Origin: Pseudarthrobacter cellobiosi
Lineage (GTDB): Bacteria; Actinomycetota; Actinomycetes; Actinomycetales; Micrococcaceae
DNA: 64,000 bases
Direction: 5' to 3'
Assembly: GCF_023913755.1 (NCBI RefSeq)
Contig: NZ_JAMXBJ010000036.1
Span: 1-64,000, forward strand
Position numbers and translations under genes: made by a program. The notes beneath the pieces are model-generated. The model was not told the DNA's origin. It made no database searches and worked only from the letters and a program-made list of their open reading frames with translations. Shown one piece after another: positions 17,239 to 38,161 of this stretch (position 1 is the first letter of the stretch; each line of letters starts with the position of its first letter).

Positions 17239-18271
17239 GGGTCACGGTCGGGTTTTGCGCGTCGAAATCCGCGGAACGCGTGCGACGACGGGGCACGCCA
17301 GCCGCTGCCAGCTTGCGTTCCAGCTTCCCGGGCTCCATCAGATCGGCCCAATCCCACCTCACCACGTTGAACCCAGTGGCCTGCTTCCAATAGAAGTCGG
17401 TGTAGCCACCAGGCCGTCCCTGTCGTGGATGGCTTGCTGCAGGACCGGGGCTTCGAAGCCGGCCACGTGGATAAGGGCGCGGCTGTAGGACTCCCCTGCG
17501 GAACCGGACAAAGGGTCCGCGAAAGCCACGGCGGTCAGCACCCCTCGCCCCGCAGCAGTGGAGTACATAGATCCGATACCTGCCTCCAGTTCAGCCGTCG
17601 TCACGGCAGGCAGCCGCAGGGTCCGGTCTGGTCGAAGCACACGGTCCAGGGGAGCGGCAGCTTCGGTGAAAGGCCTGAACGCCGCCAGGTCCAGGACAGT
17701 GCGGATGCGGCCGGTGACGAGCAGGCCCTCCCGCCGGACCACCATCAGACCCGCCGGCGCAGCAAAGTGGCGGCGGACTCCGGCACGTGACCGGCCGCCG
17801 TCGTTCTTCATGGTGAGGGCCTGGACCGGGTGGTTCAGGCCGATGGTGGGTATTCCCCACACGCTGGCGGCGGAGTGCCTGGCGAAGACCGTGGGTTTCT
17901 CGAAGGTTTCCGCAGCTGCCTGGACGCGGAGGCGATACTGCTCCCACGGCTTCAGCCCCTTCCAGACCTGCCCGTCCGTGTAGACGCCGTGCCGTACGCG
18001 GACCAGGGAACCGGCCTTTACGCGCTTGGTAAGGTCGTTCGGGGTCAGCCCGTGAAGGGCGCGGTCGCGGGCCAGGAGAAGCGGTGGAAGATCCGTCATG
18101 TAGCGAAGATGCCAGCTGCGCGCCCTCGGCGCGAGGGGTAGGTGCCGCTATGTGGAGAAGTCCTGGCGACGCGCTTGTCCGTTTCCGACCCTCACCCACC
18201 TCGGCGCAACCGGAATACGGACTGCGTGGAGGAATTTCCGCCTCGAAAACGAATTTACACGTCGAAATCCC

Positions 18272-18292
18272 CGGGTCTCGACAAGCTGGACC
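18272..18292. repeat. dispersed TCGACAAGCT-type repeat
   Basis: GGGTCTCGACAAGCTGGACC resembles the recurring ATTGAGCTTGTCGAAA unit, in reverse orientation, seen near 20000, 21940, 22550, 25565 and 29510. Confidence 0.5.
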
Positions 18293-18300
18293 ACCGGCGG

Positions 18301-19152
18301 CTAGCCTTCAGGCCGGCAGTCGAGGATGAACTCCATGAGCGACGTTGCGTCCGCGTCCGCGTAGAGCGTCACCAGGCTCTGATTGAACTCAAGTCGGCGG
18401 CTAAACGGAATGGAGATCGCGTCGTGCCCGGAGCTCAGCAGGACACCATTCATCATCAGCCGTGAGGTGCGCTTGTTGCCGTCGAAATAGAACTGGTGCC
18501 GGGTCCCGAAGCAGAAGTAGGCGACAGCCCGTTCTATCGGATTCTTCACCCCGGAAAGGAACGCCAGTCCGCGGGTGTATTCGGCCCGCAGCTCCTCCCC
18601 GCCATCTTCGCAGCCGGTGGCTTTGAAAGTGCCGGCTTCACCCAGGTTGACCCTTCCGCCGCCCCGCACAGAACCTTCGCCACGGAAGTGCCCTGCCTCT
18701 ATCGCCTCATGGGGTGCCACTATTCCGTGAAGTCGGTCTGATAAAGGCTTGGAAAGTGCGAAGGTCCCGTCCCGAACAAGGCCGTGGAGCAGGCGGGTGG
18801 ACTCGACCAAGGCCAGGACCTGTTTCTCATCGTCGAGCCGGTGTCCGCCGACGGTGACCCCTTCCAGGAGTGTTTGGACTTCCGGGAGGGTGTAGGGGTT
18901 GCCTTCCAGGGCGGCAGCGTCCCACACATGGCCAGCCAGCTGCGCCTCGAAGCGGGCGAGGGCGCGTGGCACCTCCATACCGGGCATTTCGTCCCAGGGT
19001 ATGCCAGATGAGTCCCAGGAAAAGCCAAGCTCGTCCGTCTGGTCCTTCGCTGCCGACTTGAGCAGGCCGGGGGACGGTTGCGGGCCGTGTGGCCGGGGCG
19101 GCCGCTTCTTGTACTGGTTGGAGCCGACGCCCCATCGTGCCTGCTCAGTCAT
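18301..19152 (-). CDS. Fic-domain protein
   Basis: A 283-aa Fic protein, likely an AMP transferase. The active-site motif HQFYFDGNKRTSR lies at residues 219-231, keeping the catalytic His, the acidic residue, the GNxR core and the final Arg (consensus HxFx(D/E)GNxxxxR). The N-terminal part has AALEGNPYTLPE (residues 80-91), equivalent to the inhibitory helix of class II Fic proteins, but with Ala rather than Ser/Thr four residues before the Glu. The start chosen is MTEQARWG, overlapping the upstream XRE gene by eight bases. The pair looks like a toxin-antitoxin or self-regulated operon. Confidence 0.88.
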   Translation of the reverse strand: MTEQARWGVGSNQYKKRPPRPHGPQPSPGLLKSAAKDQTDELGFSWDSSGIPWDEMPGMEVPRALARFEAQLAGHVWDAAALEGNPYTLPEVQTLLEGVTVGGHRLDDEKQVLALVESTRLLHGLVRDGTFALSKPLSDRLHGIVAPHEAIEAGHFRGEGSVRGGGRVNLGEAGTFKATGCEDGGEELRAEYTRGLAFLSGVKNPIERAVAYFCFGTRHQFYFDGNKRTSRLMMNGVLLSSGHDAISIPFSRRLEFNQSLVTLYADADATSLMEFILDCRPEG

Positions 19153-19876
19153 GGTGCGCCCAGTCTTTCGTGAGTTCCTCGGCAAGGTCATACGTGGCCG
19201 GCATCCCGTAGCAGTCGAGGATGATTTGGATCGGGTCTGCCCAGACGATCCCTTCGTCGTTCCACGCGCCGCCTTCGCTGGCGCCGTCGAGGGGGAGCAG
19301 GAGAACCTCCACCGCGGCCGAACCGGGGCGGTTGATGATGGACGCGACCCTGGCAGGATTCTCGACGTAAAGGATGATGGGCCCGGGCGTCCCTTCTGCC
19401 CCTATCCGTGCCGCGGCCGGTGCGCCGCTGGCGGCCCAACCCTTTCTCGTGGCGGCCACGGCCGAGCAGATGCGCAGGAAATTCCAGTGACTGGTGATCT
19501 CTACGGCGCCGGGGCGGAGGGGCGGGGGAGCGGCCGCACCTGCCTCTCTGGCGAGTGACCTGGGGCGAGGGGTTCCGTCAGTGCTGGCCCAGCGCATGAG
19601 TGTCTCGATCATTACCGCGTCCGCAGCCGGATTGGAGGTGCCGTCTTCAAGGATCGTGCGGGCAGCACGAAGCGCGCGTACATCGCAGAGCGGCTCAGTC
19701 CGGGACGGAAGCTGCAGGCCGGCGGCCGCCAGGATTCGCGTCGCCATGCCAAGGGTCGGGTCGATGTCGCCTTTCTCAACCCGCGTGACAGTGGAGGCCG
19801 ACACTCCGGCTCGTCTGGCAAGCTCGCGGCGGGAGAACCGGGAGTCGCGGATCGCAACCTGGACCACGTTTTGCAT
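19145..19876 (-). CDS. XRE-type HTH protein paired with Fic
   Basis: A 243-aa protein. An N-terminal XRE helix-turn-helix (about residues 10-60: FSRRELARRAGVSASTVTRV) is followed by a domain ending in VWADPIQIILDCYGM. That C-terminal pattern resembles AbiEi-like antitoxin domains, though this is only a resemblance. The start is set by the ATG at 19876. A longer in-frame extension would translate simple repeats and is rejected. A perfect palindrome spans the start codon (19871-19912), so it very likely represses its own operon. Its end overlaps the Fic gene. Confidence 0.8.
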   Translation of the reverse strand: MQNVVQVAIRDSRFSRRELARRAGVSASTVTRVEKGDIDPTLGMATRILAAAGLQLPSRTEPLCDVRALRAARTILEDGTSNPAADAVMIETLMRWASTDGTPRPRSLAREAGAAAPPPLRPGAVEITSHWNFLRICSAVAATRKGWAASGAPAAARIGAEGTPGPIILYVENPARVASIINRPGSAAVEVLLLPLDGASEGGAWNDEGIVWADPIQIILDCYGMPATYDLAEELTKDWAHHD

Positions 19877-19912
19877 ATAAGCAATTCTATGGTTCCTATT
19901 GCTTATATGCAA
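19871..19912. promoter_or_regulatory. palindromic operator over the XRE-Fic start
   Basis: TTGCATATAAGCAAT (19871-19885) pairs perfectly with ATTGCTTATATGCAA (19898-19912), with a 12-base spacer. It covers the XRE start codon and the probable -10 region. It is a strong candidate autoregulatory site and AT-rich compared with its surroundings. Confidence 0.8.
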
Positions 19913-19947
19913 TATCCACGCAGACGCTGCGTATGAGCAACAGCTGG

Positions 19948-20040
19948 TCCGTCGGTGATTGAGCTTGTCCGTCGGTGATTGAGCTTGTCCGTCGGTGGTC
20001 GAGCTTGTCGAGGCCCAGGGTCTCGACAAGCTCAATCACC
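19948..20040. repeat. tandem and inverted repeat cluster
   Basis: The 20-base unit GTCCGTCGGTGATTGAGCTT is present at 19948 and 19968, with a diverged third copy at 19988. It runs into a hairpin with 19-base arms (19994-20012 and 20022-20040, 17 of 19 matching). The shared core is TGATTGAGCTTGTCGA, a unit seen elsewhere in the window. Confidence 0.8.
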
Positions 20041-20050
20041 AGGCTGAATG

Positions 20051-20452
20051 TCAGCCCTGGTTGATGCGGATCATGTTGCCGGACGGGTCGCGGAAGGCGC
20101 AGTCGCGCGGGCCCCACGGCTGGACGATGGGTTCCTGGAGAACCTCGGCGCCTGACACCCGGAGGGTTTCGAAGGTGGCGTCGAGATCGTCCGTGTTGAA
20201 CACGAGCATGGGCATCACGCCCTTGGTGACCAGCTCCTGGATGGCGTCCCCGTCGGCCTGCGAGCGGCCGGCATGCGGCGGGGACAGGACAATCTCAAGG
20301 TCGGGCTGGGCGGCGCTGCCAAGGGTGACCCAGCGCTGTCCGTCCGAGCCGACGTCGTTCCGGACTTCCAGGCCAAGGGCGTCGCGGTAGAACGCGAGGG
20401 ACTCATCGAGATCGTTGACGGTGACGTGTGCGTACTTCAATGAAATGTTCAT
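20051..20452 (-). CDS. VOC-family (glyoxalase/dioxygenase-fold) protein
   Basis: A 133-aa vicinal-oxygen-chelate protein from MNISLKYAHVTVNDLDESLA. The typical GLEVRNDVG and the C-terminal GPRDCAFRDPSGNMIRINQG are present. The substrate is unknown; many relatives are annotated as glyoxalase or resistance-like proteins. An extension to 20494 would translate a duplicated piece of an AraC gene and is rejected. Originally it probably sat next to the AraC regulator at 22068-22493, from which an ATPase gene now separates it. Confidence 0.88.
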   Translation of the reverse strand: MNISLKYAHVTVNDLDESLAFYRDALGLEVRNDVGSDGQRWVTLGSAAQPDLEIVLSPPHAGRSQADGDAIQELVTKGVMPMLVFNTDDLDATFETLRVSGAEVLQEPIVQPWGPRDCAFRDPSGNMIRINQG

Positions 20453-20484
20453 GTCTCCCACGCTAGGGGAGTGGCAGCGGCGAG

Positions 20485-20533
20485 GCTTCTTCAATCCTGC
20501 TCGGTTTGCGCAAGGGCCGGGTGTGCTGCCGGG
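20485..20533. repeat. duplicated 3' end of the AraC gene (left copy)
   Basis: About 48 bases from TTCTTCAATCCTGCTCGG onward match 22078-22126, the 3' end of the AraC gene, almost perfectly. This is an orphan fragment left of the AAA ATPase gene. Confidence 0.85.
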
Positions 20534-20580
20534 CCGCGGTGGCCGCCGTGGGCGTGGCTTTTACTTTCAGCAAAAAGGCG

Positions 20581-20596
20581 CGCGCCTGCAGGCGCG
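20581..20596. repeat. 16-bp perfect palindrome
   Basis: CGCGCCTGCAGGCGCG is self-complementary and lies upstream of the AAA ATPase gene, in a stretch with no gene between 20453 and 20678. Its function is unknown. Confidence 0.5.
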
Positions 20597-20641
20597 GGAC
20601 TGGCCACCCAGACATGGTTACCGTAGCAAGTGTATTGATGG

Positions 20642-20660
20642 TTTATTAACTTTTAATAAA
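20642..20660. promoter_or_regulatory. 19-bp palindrome upstream of AAA ATPase 1
   Basis: TTTATTAA (20642-20649) and TTAATAAA (20653-20660) form a perfect inverted repeat, 17 bases ahead of the ATG. The length equals the palindrome ahead of the paralogue at 34709, though the sequence differs. It is a candidate self-regulatory site for an ATPase with a C-terminal winged helix. Confidence 0.65.
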
Positions 20661-20677
20661 ACACTACTATTCTTGCT

Positions 20678-21904
20678 ATGGACCCACTTGAGAACCCTTA
20701 CACCCCGAACGCCGGCGCGAATCCGCCAGTCCTGGTGGGCCGCACCGATGAGCTTGCCTCATTCAAGCTTCTGCTGGCACGGCTGGCTCGGGGGCGTAGC
20801 GAGCAGTCCATGATCATCACGGGACTTCGCGGGGTCGGCAAAACGGTATTGCTCGGTGCCTTCCGTAAAGAGGCGATTTCCGCTGATTGGGCTGTGATCG
20901 AAATCGAGGTCAGCAAGCACGATGACGGAGACTTCCGGCGCCAATTGGCGGTGGAGTTCCGGAAAGCTCTCCTCGAGATCTCGCCCCGGGCAAAGTGGAC
21001 GGATCGCGCTCGACGGGCAGCCGGAGTCCTGCGATCCTTCACAGTCTCCGTAGACCCCGAAGGTAAGTTCACGGCCGGCTTCGACGTTGAACCAGTGGAA
21101 GGTCAGGCCGATAGCGGTCATTTGGGGGTGGACCTCACAGATCTCTTCCTTGCCCTGGGTGAGGCTGCGCAGGACCATGAAACCGGCTTAGTGCTTCTTT
21201 TTGACGAGGTCCAGTTCCTGTCGAAGGTCCAACTGGAAGCCTTGATCGCCGCACTGCACAAAACGGTCCAGCGCGAACTGCCGATTACCCTGGTCGGGGC
21301 CGGACTGCCCCAGATCGCAGAACTTGCCGGGGAGGCTAAATCCTACTCCGAGCGACTCTTCAAATTTCCAAGAATCGAGATGCTCGACGACGACGACGCC
21401 ATCGAGGCCATCACCCGCCCGGCTCTCGATAGTGGAGTGATTTTCGAGAAAGACGCTATTACGGAAGCCGTGGCCGTCACGGGAGGCTACCCCTATTTCC
21501 TCCAGGAAATGGGATCAGCGGTCTGGAATCTAGCGGAAGATAACGTCATTACGGCCCGGGATGTGAAGGATGCTCACCGCTATGTTGAGGAGAAGCTGGA
21601 CGGCAGTTTCTTCCGCGTCCGGCTTGACCGGACAACGGAGCTGGAACAGGCCTACTTGCGGGCAATGGCTCAGCTGGGGCCAGAACCCCAGCTGGCCAGC
21701 GACGTCGCGACCCTTCTAAATCGCACCTCCCAGCAAGTTAGTCCTACGCGGTCGCAGCTGATTGACAAGGGGCTGCTCTACACGCCGAACCACGGTTATG
21801 CGGCCTTCACCGTTCCGCATTTCGACCGGTTCATGCTCCGGGCCGTTCCGGAATTGAATGTGCCGGAGTTGCGTCAGCGACGAGGCAGGCATACCGCCGG
21901 CTGA
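20678..21904 (+). CDS. AAA-type ATPase with C-terminal winged helix (copy 1)
   Basis: A 408-aa ATP-binding protein. Residues 18-26 (VLVGRTDEL) open the AAA module. Walker A is GLRGVGKT (49-56) and Walker B is LLFDE (173-177). ITLVGAGLPQIAEL and the arginine region SYSERLFKF follow. The last 80 residues contain a predicted winged helix (LLNRTSQQVSPTRSQLIDKG). It resembles standalone ATPases common in actinobacteria whose role is not established. A paralogue lies at 34709-35884. The gene interrupts the VOC-AraC pair and is flanked by duplicated pieces of both. Confidence 0.85.
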   Translation: MDPLENPYTPNAGANPPVLVGRTDELASFKLLLARLARGRSEQSMIITGLRGVGKTVLLGAFRKEAISADWAVIEIEVSKHDDGDFRRQLAVEFRKALLEISPRAKWTDRARRAAGVLRSFTVSVDPEGKFTAGFDVEPVEGQADSGHLGVDLTDLFLALGEAAQDHETGLVLLFDEVQFLSKVQLEALIAALHKTVQRELPITLVGAGLPQIAELAGEAKSYSERLFKFPRIEMLDDDDAIEAITRPALDSGVIFEKDAITEAVAVTGGYPYFLQEMGSAVWNLAEDNVITARDVKDAHRYVEEKLDGSFFRVRLDRTTELEQAYLRAMAQLGPEPQLASDVATLLNRTSQQVSPTRSQLIDKGLLYTPNHGYAAFTVPHFDRFMLRAVPELNVPELRQRRGRHTAG

Positions 21905-21931
21905 CCCCTGCGGTGGGGCCGGACGGCCCAA

Positions 21932-21952
21932 TGATTGAGCTTGTCGAAATCC
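21932..21952. repeat. dispersed TGATTGAGCTTGTCGAAAT unit
   Basis: TGATTGAGCTTGTCGAAATCC lies between the ATPase stop and the VOC remnant; it is a member of the family listed at 19948-20040. Confidence 0.65.
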
Positions 21953-21958
21953 GTCACT

Positions 21959-22025
21959 CCTAGTTGATGCGATCATGTTGCCCGACGGGTCCCGGAAGGC
22001 ATAGCCGCGCGGGCTCCGGTTGGAC
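21959..22025 (-). pseudogene. remnant of VOC gene 3' end (right copy)
   Basis: About 65 bases align with the 3' end of the intact VOC gene (20051-20115): the bases coding for GNMIRINQG and upstream residues are recognisable with small gaps. The rest of the gene is missing, and the remnant joins the AraC 3' end within about 55 bases. It is evidence for a partial duplication around the ATPase gene. Confidence 0.75.
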
Positions 22026-22067
22026 TAGCACTTGGTGAGCAGCACTTGGCGCTCGATGTGTCACCGG

Positions 22068-22493
22068 CTAGGAGGAAGTTTCTTCAATCCTGCTCGGTTT
22101 GCGCGAGGGCCGGGTGTGCTGCCGGGCGATGCACGTGGGCATTGCTTTCACGGCGTGGTGTTCGCGGGCGCGGTAGGCGCTGGGCGTTATGCCGACGATC
22201 TCGGTGAACCGCGAGCTGAAGGAACCCAGGGACGTGGAGCCCACTTCCATGCACGCGTCGGTCACGCTGGCACCGGCGCGCAGCAGCGCCATGGCACGTT
22301 CGATCCGCCGGGTCATGAGGTAGTTGTAGGGCGTCTCACCGTAGGCGGCCTTGAACTGGCGGGAGAAGTGCGCCGCTGACATGAGGGCCCCGGCGGCCAT
22401 GGTGGGCACGTCCAGCGGCCGGGCGTACCCGCGGTCAATCAGGTCACGGGCCCGGCGCAAGTGGGCCAAGTTTGTCAGCTCCTGCGGTGTCAT
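22068..22493 (-). CDS. AraC-family transcriptional regulator
   Basis: A 141-aa regulator consisting mainly of the AraC/XylS DNA-binding domain, with no separate ligand domain. First helix-turn-helix: LDVPTMAAGALMSAAHFSRQFK. Second: VTDACMEVGSTSLGSFSSRF, ending with GITPSAYR. It probably regulated the VOC gene that once lay next to it. Its 3' 48 bases are duplicated at 20485-20533. The start at 22493 (MTPQELTNLAHL) is typical of this short AraC type. Confidence 0.88.
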   Translation of the reverse strand: MTPQELTNLAHLRRARDLIDRGYARPLDVPTMAAGALMSAAHFSRQFKAAYGETPYNYLMTRRIERAMALLRAGASVTDACMEVGSTSLGSFSSRFTEIVGITPSAYRAREHHAVKAMPTCIARQHTRPSRKPSRIEETSS

Positions 22494-32327: not shown

Positions 32328-33569
32328 ATGCCTGTTGTGCGCCAGACCGCCGCCGAATCGGCGCTAGCCAGCGGCCGCCGTCGTCCGTCCTTCCACACCC
32401 TGACCGTCAATGAGGTGCGCCGGCTGACCGAGGACGCCATCGAGGTGACGTTCGGCGTCCCCCAAGAGCTCGCCGGCCGGTTCGACTATCTGCCCGGCCA
32501 GTACGTGGCCCTGCGCACCACGCTGCAGGATGAGAACGGCGAGCCGCATGAGGTGCGCCGCAGCTACTCCATCTGTGCCGAGCCGCGCAGCTTCCCGGAC
32601 GGCAGCAGCGAGATCCGGGTGGCCGTGAAGCAGGACCTGGGCGGGCTGTTTTCCACGTGGGCCAACGCGGAGCTGAAGGCGGGGGACACGCTGGACGTTA
32701 TGAGCCCCATGGGCGCGTTTGTGTCCAAGCACGGCCGGGACGGCCAGGCCGTGGAGCAGAACGTCATGAACTCCATGAACCACCCGGAGGAGCTGGCGGG
32801 GGAGGCCGCCTCGCAGGGGGCGGGCACTTTTGTGGCCATCGCGGCGGGGAGCGGCATCACCCCGGTGATCGCGATCGCCCGCACGCTGTTGGCGGCCAAC
32901 CCGGGGACGCGCTTTGACCTGATCTACGCCAACAAGGCCGCCATGGACGTGATGTTCCTGGAGGAGCTGGCGGACCTGAAGGACAAGTACCCGCAGCGGC
33001 TGGCCATCCACCACGTGCTGTCCCGCGAGCAGCGGATCGCGCCGCTGCTCAGCGGACGGATCGATGCCGGGAAGCTGCAGCAGCTGCTGGGCACCGCCAT
33101 CCACGCGGACGATGTGGACGAGTGGTTCCTGTGCGGGCCGTTCGAGCTGGTGCAGCTGTGCCGGGACACCCTGGCCGAGCGCGGGGTGAAGCCGGAGCAT
33201 GTGCGGTTCGAACTGTTCACGTCGGGCAAGCCGGACCGCCCGGAGGGCCACGCCGGCCGTCCCGTGGTGGTGGACGAATCGCAGGAGACGTACAAGATCA
33301 CGTTCAAGCTGGACGGCCTGCAGGGCGAGGTGGCCAGCCCCACGCACGCCCGCGAGTCGATCCTGAACGCCGCGCTGCGGGTCCGGGCGGATGTGCCGTT
33401 CGCGTGCGCCGGGGGAGTGTGCGGCACGTGCCGCGCCAAACTGGTCACCGGTACCGTGACCATGGACGAAAACTACGCGCTGGAGCAGGATGAACTGGAC
33501 AAGGGGTACGTCCTGACCTGCCAGAGCCACCCCACGAGCAAAGACGTAACAGTCGACTTCGACGTCTAA
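32328..33569 (+). CDS. paaE: 1,2-phenylacetyl-CoA epoxidase reductase, subunit E (intact copy)
   Basis: A 413-aa reductase that passes electrons from NADPH to PaaA. It has an FAD-binding barrel (YLPGQYVALRT, RRSYSICAEP), an NAD(P) domain (AAGSGITPVIAIARTLL) and a C-terminal plant-type 2Fe-2S domain (CAGGVCGTCRAKLVTG and a later CQSHP). It starts nine bases after paaD. A diverged, 5'-truncated copy is at 36359-37333. Confidence 0.95.
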   Translation: MPVVRQTAAESALASGRRRPSFHTLTVNEVRRLTEDAIEVTFGVPQELAGRFDYLPGQYVALRTTLQDENGEPHEVRRSYSICAEPRSFPDGSSEIRVAVKQDLGGLFSTWANAELKAGDTLDVMSPMGAFVSKHGRDGQAVEQNVMNSMNHPEELAGEAASQGAGTFVAIAAGSGITPVIAIARTLLAANPGTRFDLIYANKAAMDVMFLEELADLKDKYPQRLAIHHVLSREQRIAPLLSGRIDAGKLQQLLGTAIHADDVDEWFLCGPFELVQLCRDTLAERGVKPEHVRFELFTSGKPDRPEGHAGRPVVVDESQETYKITFKLDGLQGEVASPTHARESILNAALRVRADVPFACAGGVCGTCRAKLVTGTVTMDENYALEQDELDKGYVLTCQSHPTSKDVTVDFDV

Positions 33570-33576
33570 GGAACCC

Positions 33577-34359
33577 ATGATCTCCCTCTCCATCGCCAAC
33601 GGCGTCGCCGAAATCGTCCTGGACGCGCCGCACAAGCTGAACTCCCTGGACGAGCAGGCGCTCACTGATTTAACACAGGCGTACGACGACGCCGCTGCCG
33701 CCGCCTCGCGCGGTGAGGTGCGGGCGCTGCTGCTCAGGGGAGAGGGCCGCGCCTTCTGCGCGGGCCGGGACATCTCGGGCGTGACGCCGGAGACGGACGA
33801 CGCCGAAGCGTACCTGGGCGGGCTGGTGCAGCCTTTGCTGCAGAAGATGAGCGCGTTCCCGGCGCCTACGTTTGCCGCGGCACATGGCGCCTGCCTCGGG
33901 GTGGGGCTGGGGCTGCTGCTGGCCACGGACGTGGTGTACGTGGCGGAGAACGCGAAGTTCGGCTCGCCGTTCGCGAAGCTGGGGGCCACGCTGGACTCGG
34001 GCGGGCACTGGTACTTCACCGAGCGGCTGGGCATGCACCGGACGCTGGACCTGATCTACACGGCCGAGCTCATGTCCGGGACGGAGGCCGTGGCCCAGGG
34101 GATGTTCAGCCGGGCGATGCCGGCGGATGAATTGTTGGCCAATACGAGGGAAATTGTGTCGAAGGTTGCCGCCGGCGCCACAGGCGCGTTCACGGCGAGC
34201 AAGGAGCTGGTGGCACACATCCGCGACCAGCGGCTGGGCCTGTGGGACGCCATGGCCGAGGAAAACGCCGAGCAGGCGCGGCTTTGCAAGACCGCGGACT
34301 ACGCCGAGGGCTTCCGTGCCTTCCAGGAGAAGCGGTCACCGGCGTTCAAAGGCCGGTGA
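33577..34359 (+). CDS. enoyl-CoA hydratase/isomerase, PaaG-like (copy 1)
   Basis: A 260-aa crotonase-fold protein. Oxyanion-hole and CoA segments are LLRGEGRAFCAGRDISG and HGACLGVGLGLLLATD. Asp in LGATLDSGGHWY matches the catalytic Asp of PaaG, which isomerises ring-1,2-epoxyphenylacetyl-CoA to the oxepin. It lies seven bases after paaE and is therefore probably part of the pathway operon. A second copy is at 37342-38124. Confidence 0.88.
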   Translation: MISLSIANGVAEIVLDAPHKLNSLDEQALTDLTQAYDDAAAAASRGEVRALLLRGEGRAFCAGRDISGVTPETDDAEAYLGGLVQPLLQKMSAFPAPTFAAAHGACLGVGLGLLLATDVVYVAENAKFGSPFAKLGATLDSGGHWYFTERLGMHRTLDLIYTAELMSGTEAVAQGMFSRAMPADELLANTREIVSKVAAGATGAFTASKELVAHIRDQRLGLWDAMAEENAEQARLCKTADYAEGFRAFQEKRSPAFKGR

Positions 34360-34661
34360 AATGTTCCGGACAAAGTGGGCAGGGTGAAGCCGTCCGAGCC
34401 CTTCGATGCTTGAACGCAGTGCGTCCGGGACCGTCGCCGAATATTGCTCCCCCGCCGGCGTCCACCCGCACCGTCTGCCGCGCAGCGACACGACGTTCAA
34501 CCATGCGCATGACGTGATGAGCATGCGCATTAGGCCGGATGAGCATGCTCATCACTTAGTGGGCATTGGTCTACAAGCTTTGGGGCGCGACCGAGAACGT
34601 TCCGCCCTCTCCTTGATGCCCTGGTGTGTTCTCACGCCGCTGGTAACGAAAGATATGGTCT
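34360..34661. other. gene-poor gap with repeated ATGAGCATGC motifs
   Basis: No supportable gene. It contains an inverted repeat GTGATGAGCATGC (34515-34527) / GCATGCTCATCAC (34543-34555) and the 16-bp perfect palindrome GATGAGCATGCTCATC (34538-34553). Minus-strand open frames in it show no recognisable family. It separates the paa operon from AAA ATPase 2. Confidence 0.6.
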
Positions 34662-34708: not shown

Positions 34709-35884
34709 ATGGATCCAGCACTGAACCCCTTTAACCCCGGCTCCGGCGTCCGGCCTCCGGAGCTTGTCGGCCGTGATGGAGAGATCGATGCCTTCGATCT
34801 ATTGGTCGCACGCGCCAAGTCCAACACCGGGGGGGACCGGGGCATGGTTCTGTCCGGCCTTCGCGGAGTGGGCAAAACCGTTTTGCTGAACGTCTTCGCA
34901 GAGCACGCGCGACGGAACGACTGGCTGGTAATCCAGCTTGAAGCCCAACCAGGGGACGCCGGCAAAAAAGCCACCCGGGCGAAGCTTGCCCGTGAGCTTG
35001 AAGTAGGTGCGCGCAGACTCCGCGGAAAGCCAGCCTGGAGCTTTCTGCAGAATGCCTTGAACAGCATCGGCAACATCTCAGCGAGTTTGGGGGTTGCCGG
35101 CGTCTCCGCGTCGGTGACGACCAAACAAGGGCGCGCCGATTCAGGCAACCTGGACATCGACCTCGAGGAACTTGTCGAGGATGTATCACTCGCGATGCGA
35201 AAAGCCAGGGGCGGGTTCGGCTTGTTCATTGACGAAATGCAAGACCTGGACGAAGAGCTTCTGACCATACTGTTGTCCGTTCAGCACCTTGCGGGCCAGC
35301 GCGGATGGCCTTTTTACATCATCGGCGCGGGCCTACCCAACCTGCCCGGCAAGATCTCCGAGGCCAGGACCTATGGTGAGCGGCTGTTTCTCTACAGGAC
35401 CATAGGCCAGGTCAACGAAGAGGCCGCCTCGGAAGCCCTCGCCTTGCCCATCAACAGGCTCGGCGCCTCCTTGGCGCCTGATGCGCTGTCACTCCTGCTC
35501 TCTGCCGCGAACGGCTACCCCTTCTTCCTTCAGGTCTACGGACGTGCCGCCTGGGAAGCATCATCGGAGAAGATCATCAGCGCTGACGACGCGCACGTGG
35601 CAGTCCGCCACGGCACCAACGACCTGGACCATGGCTTCTTCGAGGCCAGATGGCAGCGTGCCACCAATGCAGAACGCCTCTACCTCAGGGCCATGGCCCA
35701 GGACAGCGATACCCCTTCCTCGACTGGAGAAATCGCCGAACGCCTTGGGAAGTCGACCAGCAAACTTGCCGTCATCCGCTCACGACTCATCGACAAGGGT
35801 GTTGTGTATGCACCCGAATATGGCTCTATTCAGTTCACGGTGCCCGGAATGGCTGCCTTCATCGGGCGCCAGACCGAGGACTGA
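34709..35884 (+). CDS. AAA-type ATPase with C-terminal winged helix (copy 2)
   Basis: A 391-aa paralogue of the protein at 20678-21904. It shares the MDPxxNP start, the LVGRDGEI segment, Walker A GLRGVGKT (50-57), Walker B FGLFIDEMQDL, the FYIIGAGLPNLPG motif, TYGERLF and NGYPFFLQ. The C-terminal winged helix is TGEIAERLGKSTSKLAVIRS. The start at 34709 is chosen over an upstream in-frame ATG (34673) because both paralogues begin MDP. It is inserted between two copies of the paaE-paaG end. Function is unknown. Confidence 0.85.
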   Translation: MDPALNPFNPGSGVRPPELVGRDGEIDAFDLLVARAKSNTGGDRGMVLSGLRGVGKTVLLNVFAEHARRNDWLVIQLEAQPGDAGKKATRAKLARELEVGARRLRGKPAWSFLQNALNSIGNISASLGVAGVSASVTTKQGRADSGNLDIDLEELVEDVSLAMRKARGGFGLFIDEMQDLDEELLTILLSVQHLAGQRGWPFYIIGAGLPNLPGKISEARTYGERLFLYRTIGQVNEEAASEALALPINRLGASLAPDALSLLLSAANGYPFFLQVYGRAAWEASSEKIISADDAHVAVRHGTNDLDHGFFEARWQRATNAERLYLRAMAQDSDTPSSTGEIAERLGKSTSKLAVIRSRLIDKGVVYAPEYGSIQFTVPGMAAFIGRQTED

Positions 35885-36358: not shown

Positions 36359-37333
36359 TTGGACGCATCGTTCCCGGACGGCAGCAGTGAGATCCGGGTG
36401 GCCGTGAAGCAGGACCTGGGCGGGTTGTTCTCCACGTGGGCCAACGCCGAGATGAGGGCGGGGGACACCCTGGAGGTGATGAGCCCCATGGGCGCGTTCG
36501 TGTCCAAGCACGGCCGCGACGGCAAAGCCGTGGACCAGAACGTCATGAACTCCATGAACCACCCGGAGGAGCTGGCGGGTGAGCCGGGCAGCTTCGTGGC
36601 CATCGCTGCGGGGAGTGGCATTACCCCGGTGATCGCCATCGCGCGCACTTTGCTGGCGGCCAACCAGGAGACCCGGTTCGACCTGATCTATGCCAACAAG
36701 GCGGCCATGGACGTGATGTTCCTGGAGGAGCTCGCGGACCTGAAGGACAAGTACCCGCAGCGCCTCGCCATCCACCACGTGCTGTCCCGTGAGCAGCGGA
36801 TCGCGCCGCTACTGAGCGGCCGGATCGACGCCGGGAAGCTGCAGCAGCTGCTGGGCACCGCCATCCACGCGGACGATGTGGACGAGTGGTTCCTGTGCGG
36901 TCCGTTCGAGCTGGTGCAGCTGTGCCGGGACACCCTGGCCGAGCGCGGCGTGAAGCCCGAGCACGTCCGGTTCGAACTGTTCACGAGTGGCAAGCCGGAC
37001 CGCCCGGAGGGGCACGCCGGCCGCCCCGTGGTGGTGGACGAATCCCAGGAGACGTACAAGATCACGTTCAAGCTGGACGGCCTGCAGGGCGAGGTGGCCA
37101 CCCCCACCCACGCCCGGGAGTCCATCCTCAACGCCGCGCTGCGGGTGCGCCCGGACGTGCCGTTCGCGTGCGCCGGGGGAGTGTGCGGCACCTGCCGGGC
37201 CAAGCTGGTCACCGGCACCGTGACCATGGACGAAAACTACGCGCTGGAGCAGGATGAGCTGGACAAGGGCTACGTGCTAACCTGCCAGAGCCACCCCACC
37301 AGCAAAGACGTAACAGTCGACTTCGACGTCTAA
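36359..37333 (+). pseudogene. paaE, second copy, 5'-truncated
   Basis: Homology to the intact paaE starts abruptly at about 36370 (FPDGSSEIRVAVKQDLG) and runs to the end: NAD(P) domain, then the 2Fe-2S domain with CAGGVCGTCRAKLVTG. About 85 N-terminal residues holding most of the FAD-binding barrel are missing, and only a TTG precedes the homology. The DNA differs from copy 1 at many synonymous sites and by a few-residue deletion (GEPGSF versus GEAASQGAGTF), so it is not a recent tandem copy. Probably non-functional. Confidence 0.85.
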
Positions 37334-37341
37334 GGAGCCCC

Positions 37342-38124
37342 ATGATCACTCTCTCCATCGCCAACAACGTCGCTGAAGTGGTCCTTGACGCGCCGCAGAA
37401 GCTGAACTCCTTCGACGAGCAGGCCCTGGCGGATTTAACACAGGCGTACGACGACGCCGCTGCCGCCGTTGAGAGCGGGAAGGTGCGGGCCCTGCTGCTC
37501 AGGGGAGAGGGCCGCGCCTTCTGCGCGGGCCGGGACATTTCGGGCGTGATACCGGAGGAGGACGACGCCGCCGCGTACCTGGGCGGGCTGGTGGAGCCGC
37601 TGTTGAAGAAGATGAGCGCGTTCCCGGCTCCCACGTTCGCGGCCGCCCACGGCGCCTGCCTCGGGGTGGGGCTGGGGCTGCTGCTGGCTACGGACGTGGT
37701 GTACGTGGCGGAGAACGCCAAGTTCGGCTCGCCCTTTGCCAAGCTGGGGGCCACGCTGGATTCGGGCGGGCACTGGTACTTCACCGAGCGGCTGGGGATG
37801 CACCGGACGCTGGACCTGATCTATACCGCGGAGTTGATCTCCGGTGCGGAGGCCGTGGCGCAAGGGATGTTCAGCCGGGCCATGCCGGCGGACACTCTTC
37901 TAGATCAGACCCGGGAGATCGTGGGACGGGTGGCCGTGGGTGCAACGGGCGCGTTTGTGGCAAGCAAGCAGCTGGTGGCGCACATCCGGGACCAGCGCCT
38001 GGGACTCTGGGCAGCCATGCGGGAGGAGAACGCTGAGCAGGCGCGTCTCTGCCGGACCGAGGACTACTCCGAGGGTTTCCGGGCTTTCCAGGAGAAGCGG
38101 AACCCGGAGTTTACCGGCGGGTGA
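37342..38124 (+). CDS. enoyl-CoA hydratase/isomerase, PaaG-like (copy 2)
   Basis: A 260-aa full-length paralogue of 33577-34359, keeping FCAGRDISG and LGATLDSGG with the catalytic Asp. It differs mainly at the N-terminus (NNVAEVVLDAPQKLNSF) and C-terminus. Ribosome site AAGGAG precedes the ATG. It may still be made if a promoter lies upstream of the truncated paaE. Confidence 0.88.
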   Translation: MITLSIANNVAEVVLDAPQKLNSFDEQALADLTQAYDDAAAAVESGKVRALLLRGEGRAFCAGRDISGVIPEEDDAAAYLGGLVEPLLKKMSAFPAPTFAAAHGACLGVGLGLLLATDVVYVAENAKFGSPFAKLGATLDSGGHWYFTERLGMHRTLDLIYTAELISGAEAVAQGMFSRAMPADTLLDQTREIVGRVAVGATGAFVASKQLVAHIRDQRLGLWAAMREENAEQARLCRTEDYSEGFRAFQEKRNPEFTGG

Positions 38125-38161
38125 ATTGCCCTTGCCAGAGGCCGTTGAGTAAACCTCACCC

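Follow-up and report, generated by a model that had tools for sequence, protein, structure and literature searches.

A solitary AAA+ ATPase gene at the joint of a duplicated VOC–AraC segment in Pseudarthrobacter cellobiosi, and similar joints at other loci of its gene family

We analyzed a stretch of 64,000 nucleotides from Pseudarthrobacter cellobiosi (assembly GCF_023913755.1, contig NZ_JAMXBJ010000036.1, positions 1 to 64,000 of the forward strand; hereafter the window), in which an orphan AAA+ ATPase gene (gene 1) lies between two copies of a segment that comprises a VOC gene and the 3′ end of an AraC gene. The left copy consists of an intact VOC/glyoxalase-family gene at 20051–20452 on the minus strand (Pfam Glyoxalase, 5e-20) and is closed by an AraC 3′ end remnant at 20482–20534. 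From there to the ATPase gene run a segment of unassigned origin (20535–20624), which had no match in the relatives' loci compared, and an AT-rich imperfect dyad (20625–20677; arms of 25, 19 matches), immediately 5′ of the gene. Gene 1 itself (20678–21904, plus strand) encodes 408 aa with an AAA_16 domain (E 1.9e-17). On its right are half of a REP-like (repetitive extragenic palindromic) repeat at 21932–21952, inverted with respect to one downstream of the left VOC gene; a second, decayed VOC copy with internal deletions (VOC′; 21953–22075, minus strand), delimited by pairwise alignment; and an intact AraC-type regulator gene (22068–22493, minus strand; Pfam HTH_18, 1.2e-20), within which the right copy of the AraC 3′ end occupies 22075–22127. 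The simplest structure is VOC and AraC 3′ end, ATPase, decayed VOC′ and AraC.

A preliminary description of this DNA had reported fragments of VOC and AraC on both sides of the ATPase gene, and these are real. The AraC 3′ end forms a direct repeat of 53 nt (20482–20534/22075–22127, 94%), and the VOC 3′ end one of 47 nt (20069–20115/21971–22017, 87%). BLAST of one flank against the other gave matches of 48 nt (E 2e-19) and 76 nt (E 1e-16), beyond chance. The copies are not exact, which makes an assembly artefact unlikely. The right piece had been described as the VOC 3′ end; that end is present, but the piece is more than that. Its parts 21953–22028, about 22030–22051 and about 22058–22075 match the end, middle and start region of VOC in this order, and judged from its sequence it is what is left of an entire VOC gene that has suffered internal deletions, lying immediately ahead of the intact AraC gene. 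The duplication may extend past the VOC stop into the REP-like repeat (21932–21952 versus 20001–20040).

For the empty-site comparison, the best-matching loci (L011–L039) were fetched from genomes of the same genus, and single-copy status was judged within the fetched stretch. VOC and AraC are adjacent in 29/29 of these loci, with one match each, 23–141 nt apart, which agrees with the earlier proposal that the two genes had once been neighbours. The stretch 20051–20534 is 96% identical to genomes G030 and G042. Aligned with the closest relatives, the left side is similar as far as 20534, on the right the similarity starts again at about 22062–22080, and 48–53 nt of the AraC end are counted twice. 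The comparison with related strains that had been called for provided both the empty sites and the aligned junctions. As had been claimed, the ATPase gene was inserted and is surrounded by duplicated host sequence. The duplication without the ATPase gene was seen in 0/35 loci checked, and gene 1 had no match in any other genome's locus among the VOC–AraC loci compared. The absence of an integrase or transposase held in Pfam scans of six proteins at 17.4–22.5 kb, the surroundings of gene 1, where the domains found were AbiEi, Fic, HTH, VOC and AraC; the insert's one gene has an AAA-type domain only. The VOC–AraC 3′ segment is thus duplicated, with gene 1 at the joint.

The VOC–AraC site accepts other inserts too, because at least 5/60 genus genomes searched hold other DNA of about 1.5 kb between the two genes. 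These are G054, G045, G043, G051 and G012 (L040–L044), each with a different insert from that of the window; together with a locus from another genus of the order (L051) they make six further loci with 1.3–1.6 kb between VOC and AraC. The inserts of L040 and L044 have no ATPase gene, and their open reading frames (ORFs) resemble by eye a molybdate-binding (molybdate-uptake) protein and a DNA-binding protein.

The 3′ end of VOC′ is nearest to the VOC gene of its own genome and to that of G042 (both 0.84), followed by G030 and several others (0.82). Of the 14 substitutions inside the gene, 8 are absent from every other of the 36 rows compared, and 2 are shared with one or two rows. VOC′ looks like an own-clade copy that decayed. 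A distant donor of VOC′ was considered and is not supported, the closest sequences being the own and G042 VOC.

A second orphan AAA+ ATPase gene of the window (gene 2, AAA_16; 34709–35884, plus strand), 36% identical to gene 1, also lies between two copies of a segment. The duplicated genes are the end of one with the Pfam domains Fer2, NAD_binding_1 and FAD_binding_6, and a whole enoyl-CoA hydratase gene (ECH_1), here called paaE and paaG, in part after their Pfam types. The left copy, the 3′ part of paaE with paaG (32592–34363, plus strand), is 88.2% identical over 1773 nt to the right copy (36371–38128, plus strand), where a 5′-truncated paaE′ and an intact paaG′ are followed by a galU-like ORF (by eye). 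ORFs around gene 2 were listed, and part of them were scanned for domains. The segment was matched in 147/150 genus genomes, and two full copies were found in the own genome alone among the rows listed, the other double matches being mostly two halves. The left copy is 94.2–94.5% identical to G042/G030 and the right copy 88.7–90%. Between the paaE copies there are 61 differences in synonymous codons and 13 in changed codons. Since its differences are mostly synonymous, the truncated paaE′ seems to have evolved as a working gene under selection, and the pattern suggests that the paaE copies came from different sources, one of them being more probably donor-derived than an old local duplicate. 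The paaG copies, with 61 synonymous-codon and 60 changed-codon differences, do not show this.

Similar joints were found at other loci of the ATPase family. In G159 (L056/L209), an intact jetD gene (Pfam JetD_C) and the remains of a second copy enclose an ATPase gene with 62% identity to gene 1. These remains, upstream of the ATPase gene, are 73 nt of the jetD 3′ end (88%) and a 135-nt piece (94%), with full counterparts downstream; that of the 135-nt piece, which is presumably jetC, is 2 kb further on. The locus is a Wadjet case. In contig C18 of the own genome (L008, about 2110–1490, minus strand), an ATPase relic immediately follows the 3′ end of a jetD-like gene. The relic keeps the first 36 and the last 31 matched residues with about 330 nt of other sequence between them, has a dyad upstream by eye, and its locus shows 70% DNA identity to L056 over 1.46 kb. 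A donor of the G159 insertion would have this arrangement.

The ychF 3′ end (Pfam YchF-GTPase_C) is involved in a Frankiaceae bin (L092), where 38 nt of it are repeated after the ATPase gene; the two copies, compared over 36 nt, show 4 synonymous changes and 1 other, and the stop is kept in both. G136 and G215 (L178/L273 and L076/L274), counted as a single event, have 139 or 94 nt from the end of a gene repeated after the ATPase gene. The 112.8-kb contig C3 of G136 may be a plasmid. Two further repeats are of other types: that of L112/L232 (105 nt) looks like an intergenic repeat, and that of L165/L246 (37 nt) overlaps the first ~10 bases of a tRNA-Arg gene. The neighbourhoods of L055 and L058 were searched, and no clean joint was found there.

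To judge these repeats against background, we looked for direct repeats of at least 35 nt and at least 72% identity across the gene in 5-kb flanks, with 95 ORFs from 20 regions of 20 genomes as controls. Five of 100 ATPase loci were left out, with flanks below 1000 bases (L223, L245, L266, L297 and L087). Any repeat within 5 kb was found in 14/95 ATPase loci and in 6/95 control ORFs, the latter from 3 regions. When the near edges of both copies had to lie within 500 bp of the gene, the counts were 8/95 ATPase loci (7 events) and 0/95 controls (Fisher p 0.003). These near repeats range from 37 nt to 1773 nt and are different at each locus. The other six positives (L214, L224, L268, L278, L285 and L251) were not counted as near, being far on one or both sides; the repeat copies of L251 resemble tRNA sequence. 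With 600-bp flanks, 5/71 ATPase loci and 1/150 matched control genes fell below 1e-8, and the single control positive is a pair of SAM-IV (S-adenosylmethionine) riboswitches. This test is blind to long duplications and missed gene 2; hence the 5-kb test. A first control with random positions (7/400 below 1e-8) was drawn mostly from the window and may include the finding itself, and was replaced by the matched genes. A translated flank-versus-flank search was swamped by G+C-rich frames and was ignored unless DNA agreed.

What is observed directly is the ATPase gene at the joint of a duplication, together with the empty sites and the recurrence at other loci. At gene 1, and likewise at gene 2, direct repeats of a host segment flank the gene on both sides and there is a single-copy empty site, as in insertion-duplication. 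In a study of E. coli (PMC3240628), 56/60 clones gave a product diagnostic of partial target duplication, and 14 sequenced clones had target duplications of 109–950 bp, for which the explanation given there was recircularisation of the molecules followed by a single crossover; the other 4/60 clones were apparently one-sided events. The likeness to that reaction, seen there beside homology-facilitated illegitimate recombination, is that foreign DNA without a recombinase of its own is flanked by a partial target duplication. The present cases differ in being natural, repeated in one gene family and with diverged copies, and in that the intermediate and the donor are not seen. In a report on type VI secretion system (T6SS) effector genes displaced by incoming modules (PMC5361080), a one-sided model is proposed, not proven: as would be the case here, a gene arrives via homology on one side and older genes or fragments are left beside it, but the anchor described there is always the same cluster, whereas here the host genes vary and the cargo is an ATPase of unassigned role. 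By analogy, a known reaction, insertion-duplication, would here recur in one gene family.

The account that we favour, to which we give about an even chance, is that single crossover or one-sided recombination brought in a bare gene attached to homologous host DNA. The ATPase would be a horizontally acquired single-gene cassette (upstream dyad and ORF), and the incoming DNA would have carried it joined to a piece homologous to the host, REP–VOC–AraC 3′ end. Integration would have used homology on one side only. In the simplest route, end joining would circularise the DNA, and a single crossover with the chromosome would follow; such end joining is possible because the own genome has a Ku gene. 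Alternatively, a linear piece would recombine at one end and be joined illegitimately at the other. In both routes, direct repeats of the homologous segment would remain on the two sides of the new gene. With a working VOC retained on the left and a working AraC on the right, the second VOC would have been redundant and would have decayed. How the gene was arranged in the donor, whether the intermediate was a circle or a linear piece, and which enzymes acted (RecA, Ku-type joining) are inferences. More generally, such single genes may spread by recombination with carried host DNA and not with a cutting enzyme of their own. The preliminary description had likewise suggested a cassette spreading through flanking homology; gene 2, G159, ychF and G136/G215 speak for it, but a donor on the VOC side did not appear.

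Several results weigh against this account. No donor with an ATPase gene beside VOC or AraC was found among 102 other unique ATPase loci (103 including the window's own, most with about 1.5 kb on each side), and no flanking repeat was found in 81/95 ATPase loci. The contrast with the controls is modest when any repeat within 5 kb counts. Without the two window loci and with G136/G215 taken once, the near repeats come to 5/92 against 0/95 (p 0.03), and the coding cases alone to 3/92 (p 0.12). The 500-bp rule was set post hoc, after the data had been seen, and the loci are not all independent, so the near-repeat counts are a guide only. Around gene 2 the native copy is ambiguous, as the left single-copy flank is 90.5–92% identical to G042/G030 and the right galU-like region 84–90%. 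Such a duplication may also arise otherwise, because G029 has, about 12 kb from a full match, a further paaE–paaG copy that is partial and covers 962 nt of the query at 83% identity (C1:74884–75866 and C1:87393–89161 for the two).

The nearness of VOC′ to the own and G042 VOC, with its private substitutions, also suits a local tandem duplication by replication slippage or unequal crossover, with the ATPase gene captured later at or near the joint. The REP-like repeats at the right edge and beside VOC could have mediated such a duplication, and the near-equal numbers of changed-codon and synonymous differences between the paaG copies agree with it. However, two events would have to coincide at one point, and again at gene 2, G159, ychF and G136/G215; the paaE and ychF copies differ mostly synonymously; and the VOC–AraC duplication was never met without the ATPase gene in the loci checked. 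We consider a local origin less likely, and place it second.

A different possibility is that the ATPase gene and its dyad form a dedicated mobile element, perhaps with a host nuclease or polymerase, that inserts beside gene ends with variable target duplications (37 nt to ~2 kb). The limits of the shared unit agree with this. In most ATPase pairs with 78–93% DNA identity and unshared flanks, similarity begins at about −50 to −105 relative to the start and ends at −23 to +23 relative to the stop. L058 and L098, which belong to two genera, share 90.6% identity over −105 to +19 and have no other flank in common, so cassettes can move alone; this speaks for the favoured account as well. But some pairs share longer stretches, namely L059/L060 (−174 to +206), L072/L077 (from about −475), L070/L074/L076 and L119/L120. 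In L070, L074 and L076/L178 the left flank is common (~95%), and three different right flanks start within ~26 nt of the ATPase stop.

Upstream, the common part has a raised AT content (0.61 versus 0.37 further upstream) and tends to hold a dyad centred near −37. The dyad scores at least 10 in 28/100 family members versus 6/162 control genes, which also favours a dedicated element. Mismatches in the dyad arms are GT 34, AC 38 and other 110, and since they lack a strand bias the dyad is better explained as a site in DNA than as an RNA hairpin; on these counts an RNA reading was rejected. Near-perfect dyads with arms of 18–27 nt occur, for example, in L109, L113, L066, L080 and L119/L120, where the symmetry is kept and the sequences differ between lineages. 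On the 3′ side of the ATPase homologues no common sequence or motif was seen by eye in the sequences shown, as would bear on an integron cassette, and no attC model was applied. The family is patchy, with relatives at E ≤ 1e-100 in 10/395 genomes of the taxonomic family and 21/396 of the order (own genome included in each). At E ≤ 1e-5, relatives occur in 119 plasmid records and 1 phage record.

The structure model of the gene 1 product (predicted local distance difference test score, pLDDT, 82; predicted template modelling score, pTM, 0.72) predicts an AAA+ core and a C-terminal domain that we read as a winged helix. Its best structural match is the archaeal ATPase 2qen (PABY2304; Z 24.6, root-mean-square deviation (rmsd) 3.7, 324 residues), followed by the archaeal ATPase 2fna (SSO1545; Z 23.8, rmsd 3.6, 326 residues). 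Both cover model residues 5–388, so that the SSO1545/PABY2304-type fold extends over the AAA+ core and the C-terminal domain. The overall fold is the same, but sequence identity is just 17–18%, and the ATPase here is bacterial, with an upstream dyad. Further matches are archaeal ORC2 (Z 20.2), NB-ARC proteins, and TnsC and MuB (Z 14–15). With Orc1/Cdc6 and TnsC/MuB the AAA+ domain is in common (Z 14–20), but unlike in TnsC/MuB systems, no transposase is among the gene 1 neighbours scanned. NCBIfam gave weak matches to Hda and orc1/cdc6 with scores far below the curated cut-offs, and the gene 1 product falls outside the Orc1/Cdc6 initiators (TIGR02928, 21.2 bits versus a cut-off of 181.3). No nuclease or recombinase fold was among the 50 chains listed for the model, a result that still leaves room for one. 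A common fold shows no function.

This predicted fold would suit a dedicated element, by its likeness to the archaeal ATPases and ORC/Cdc6 and, more weakly, to TnsC and MuB. Against such an element, the ATPase has AAA-type Pfam domains only, a common 3′-side motif is missing from the sequences shown, the duplications vary in length and were not found at most loci, and the differences between some copies (ychF, paaE) point to different sources. An insertion sequence or transposon also fits poorly, as the gene 1 insert has no transposase in its Pfam scan and the duplications are not short and of fixed length. We regard a dedicated element as unlikely. Its boldest form would be that solitary ORC/TnsC-like ATPase genes with their dyad are minimal mobile elements of about 1.3 kb, which drive or attract their own insertion beside gene ends and copy tens to thousands of target bases without a recombinase of their own, for example through dyad binding that steers break repair or template switching; to this we give little credence.

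Least of all do we favour a relic of a site-specific integrative element, now without its integrase, whose attachment (att) sites were gene 3′ ends: the repeats do copy gene 3′ ends (AraC, jetD, ychF and the G136/G215 gene), one overlaps the start of tRNA-Arg, and on two Arthrobacter plasmids (p2MP and pYA7-1a; L122, L123) a site-specific integrase gene lies 2.0 and 4.3 kb from the ATPase gene, but this origin is very improbable, as the duplications far exceed a short att core (whole VOC with the AraC end, 1.77 kb of paaE–paaG, jetD with a piece 2 kb away), the targets differ, and no integrase domain was found in the six proteins scanned around gene 1, a scan that does not bear on an integrase acting in trans. 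On both plasmids, the family ATPase gene is downstream of mobC-relaxase genes.

Single genes without recombinases move between bacterial genomes, and their route is rarely visible. The duplicated and partly decayed host genes at several loci of one gene family show a possible route, and the diverged copies may record donor and recipient. If entry by recombination with carried host DNA is true, a genome-wide search for genes at the joints of xenologous duplications would gauge such gene gain, and one would have to ask what makes an ATPase with a fold of DNA-binding type such a frequent cargo. In the literature we found no earlier account of such ATPase cassettes, the search being narrow.

Beside the VOC gene of the window, an AbiEi-like gene is separated from VOC by a Fic-like gene (18301–19191; weak Pfam match, below the cut-off) and an HTH gene (19145–19879). 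In G030 the counterpart of window positions 18000–18267 directly adjoins VOC. The stretch 18268–20050 has the look of another accessory insertion, adjacent to the first, and REP-like repeats lie close to each of its edges. The REP-like unit occurs there in three copies 20 nt apart (19942–20009).

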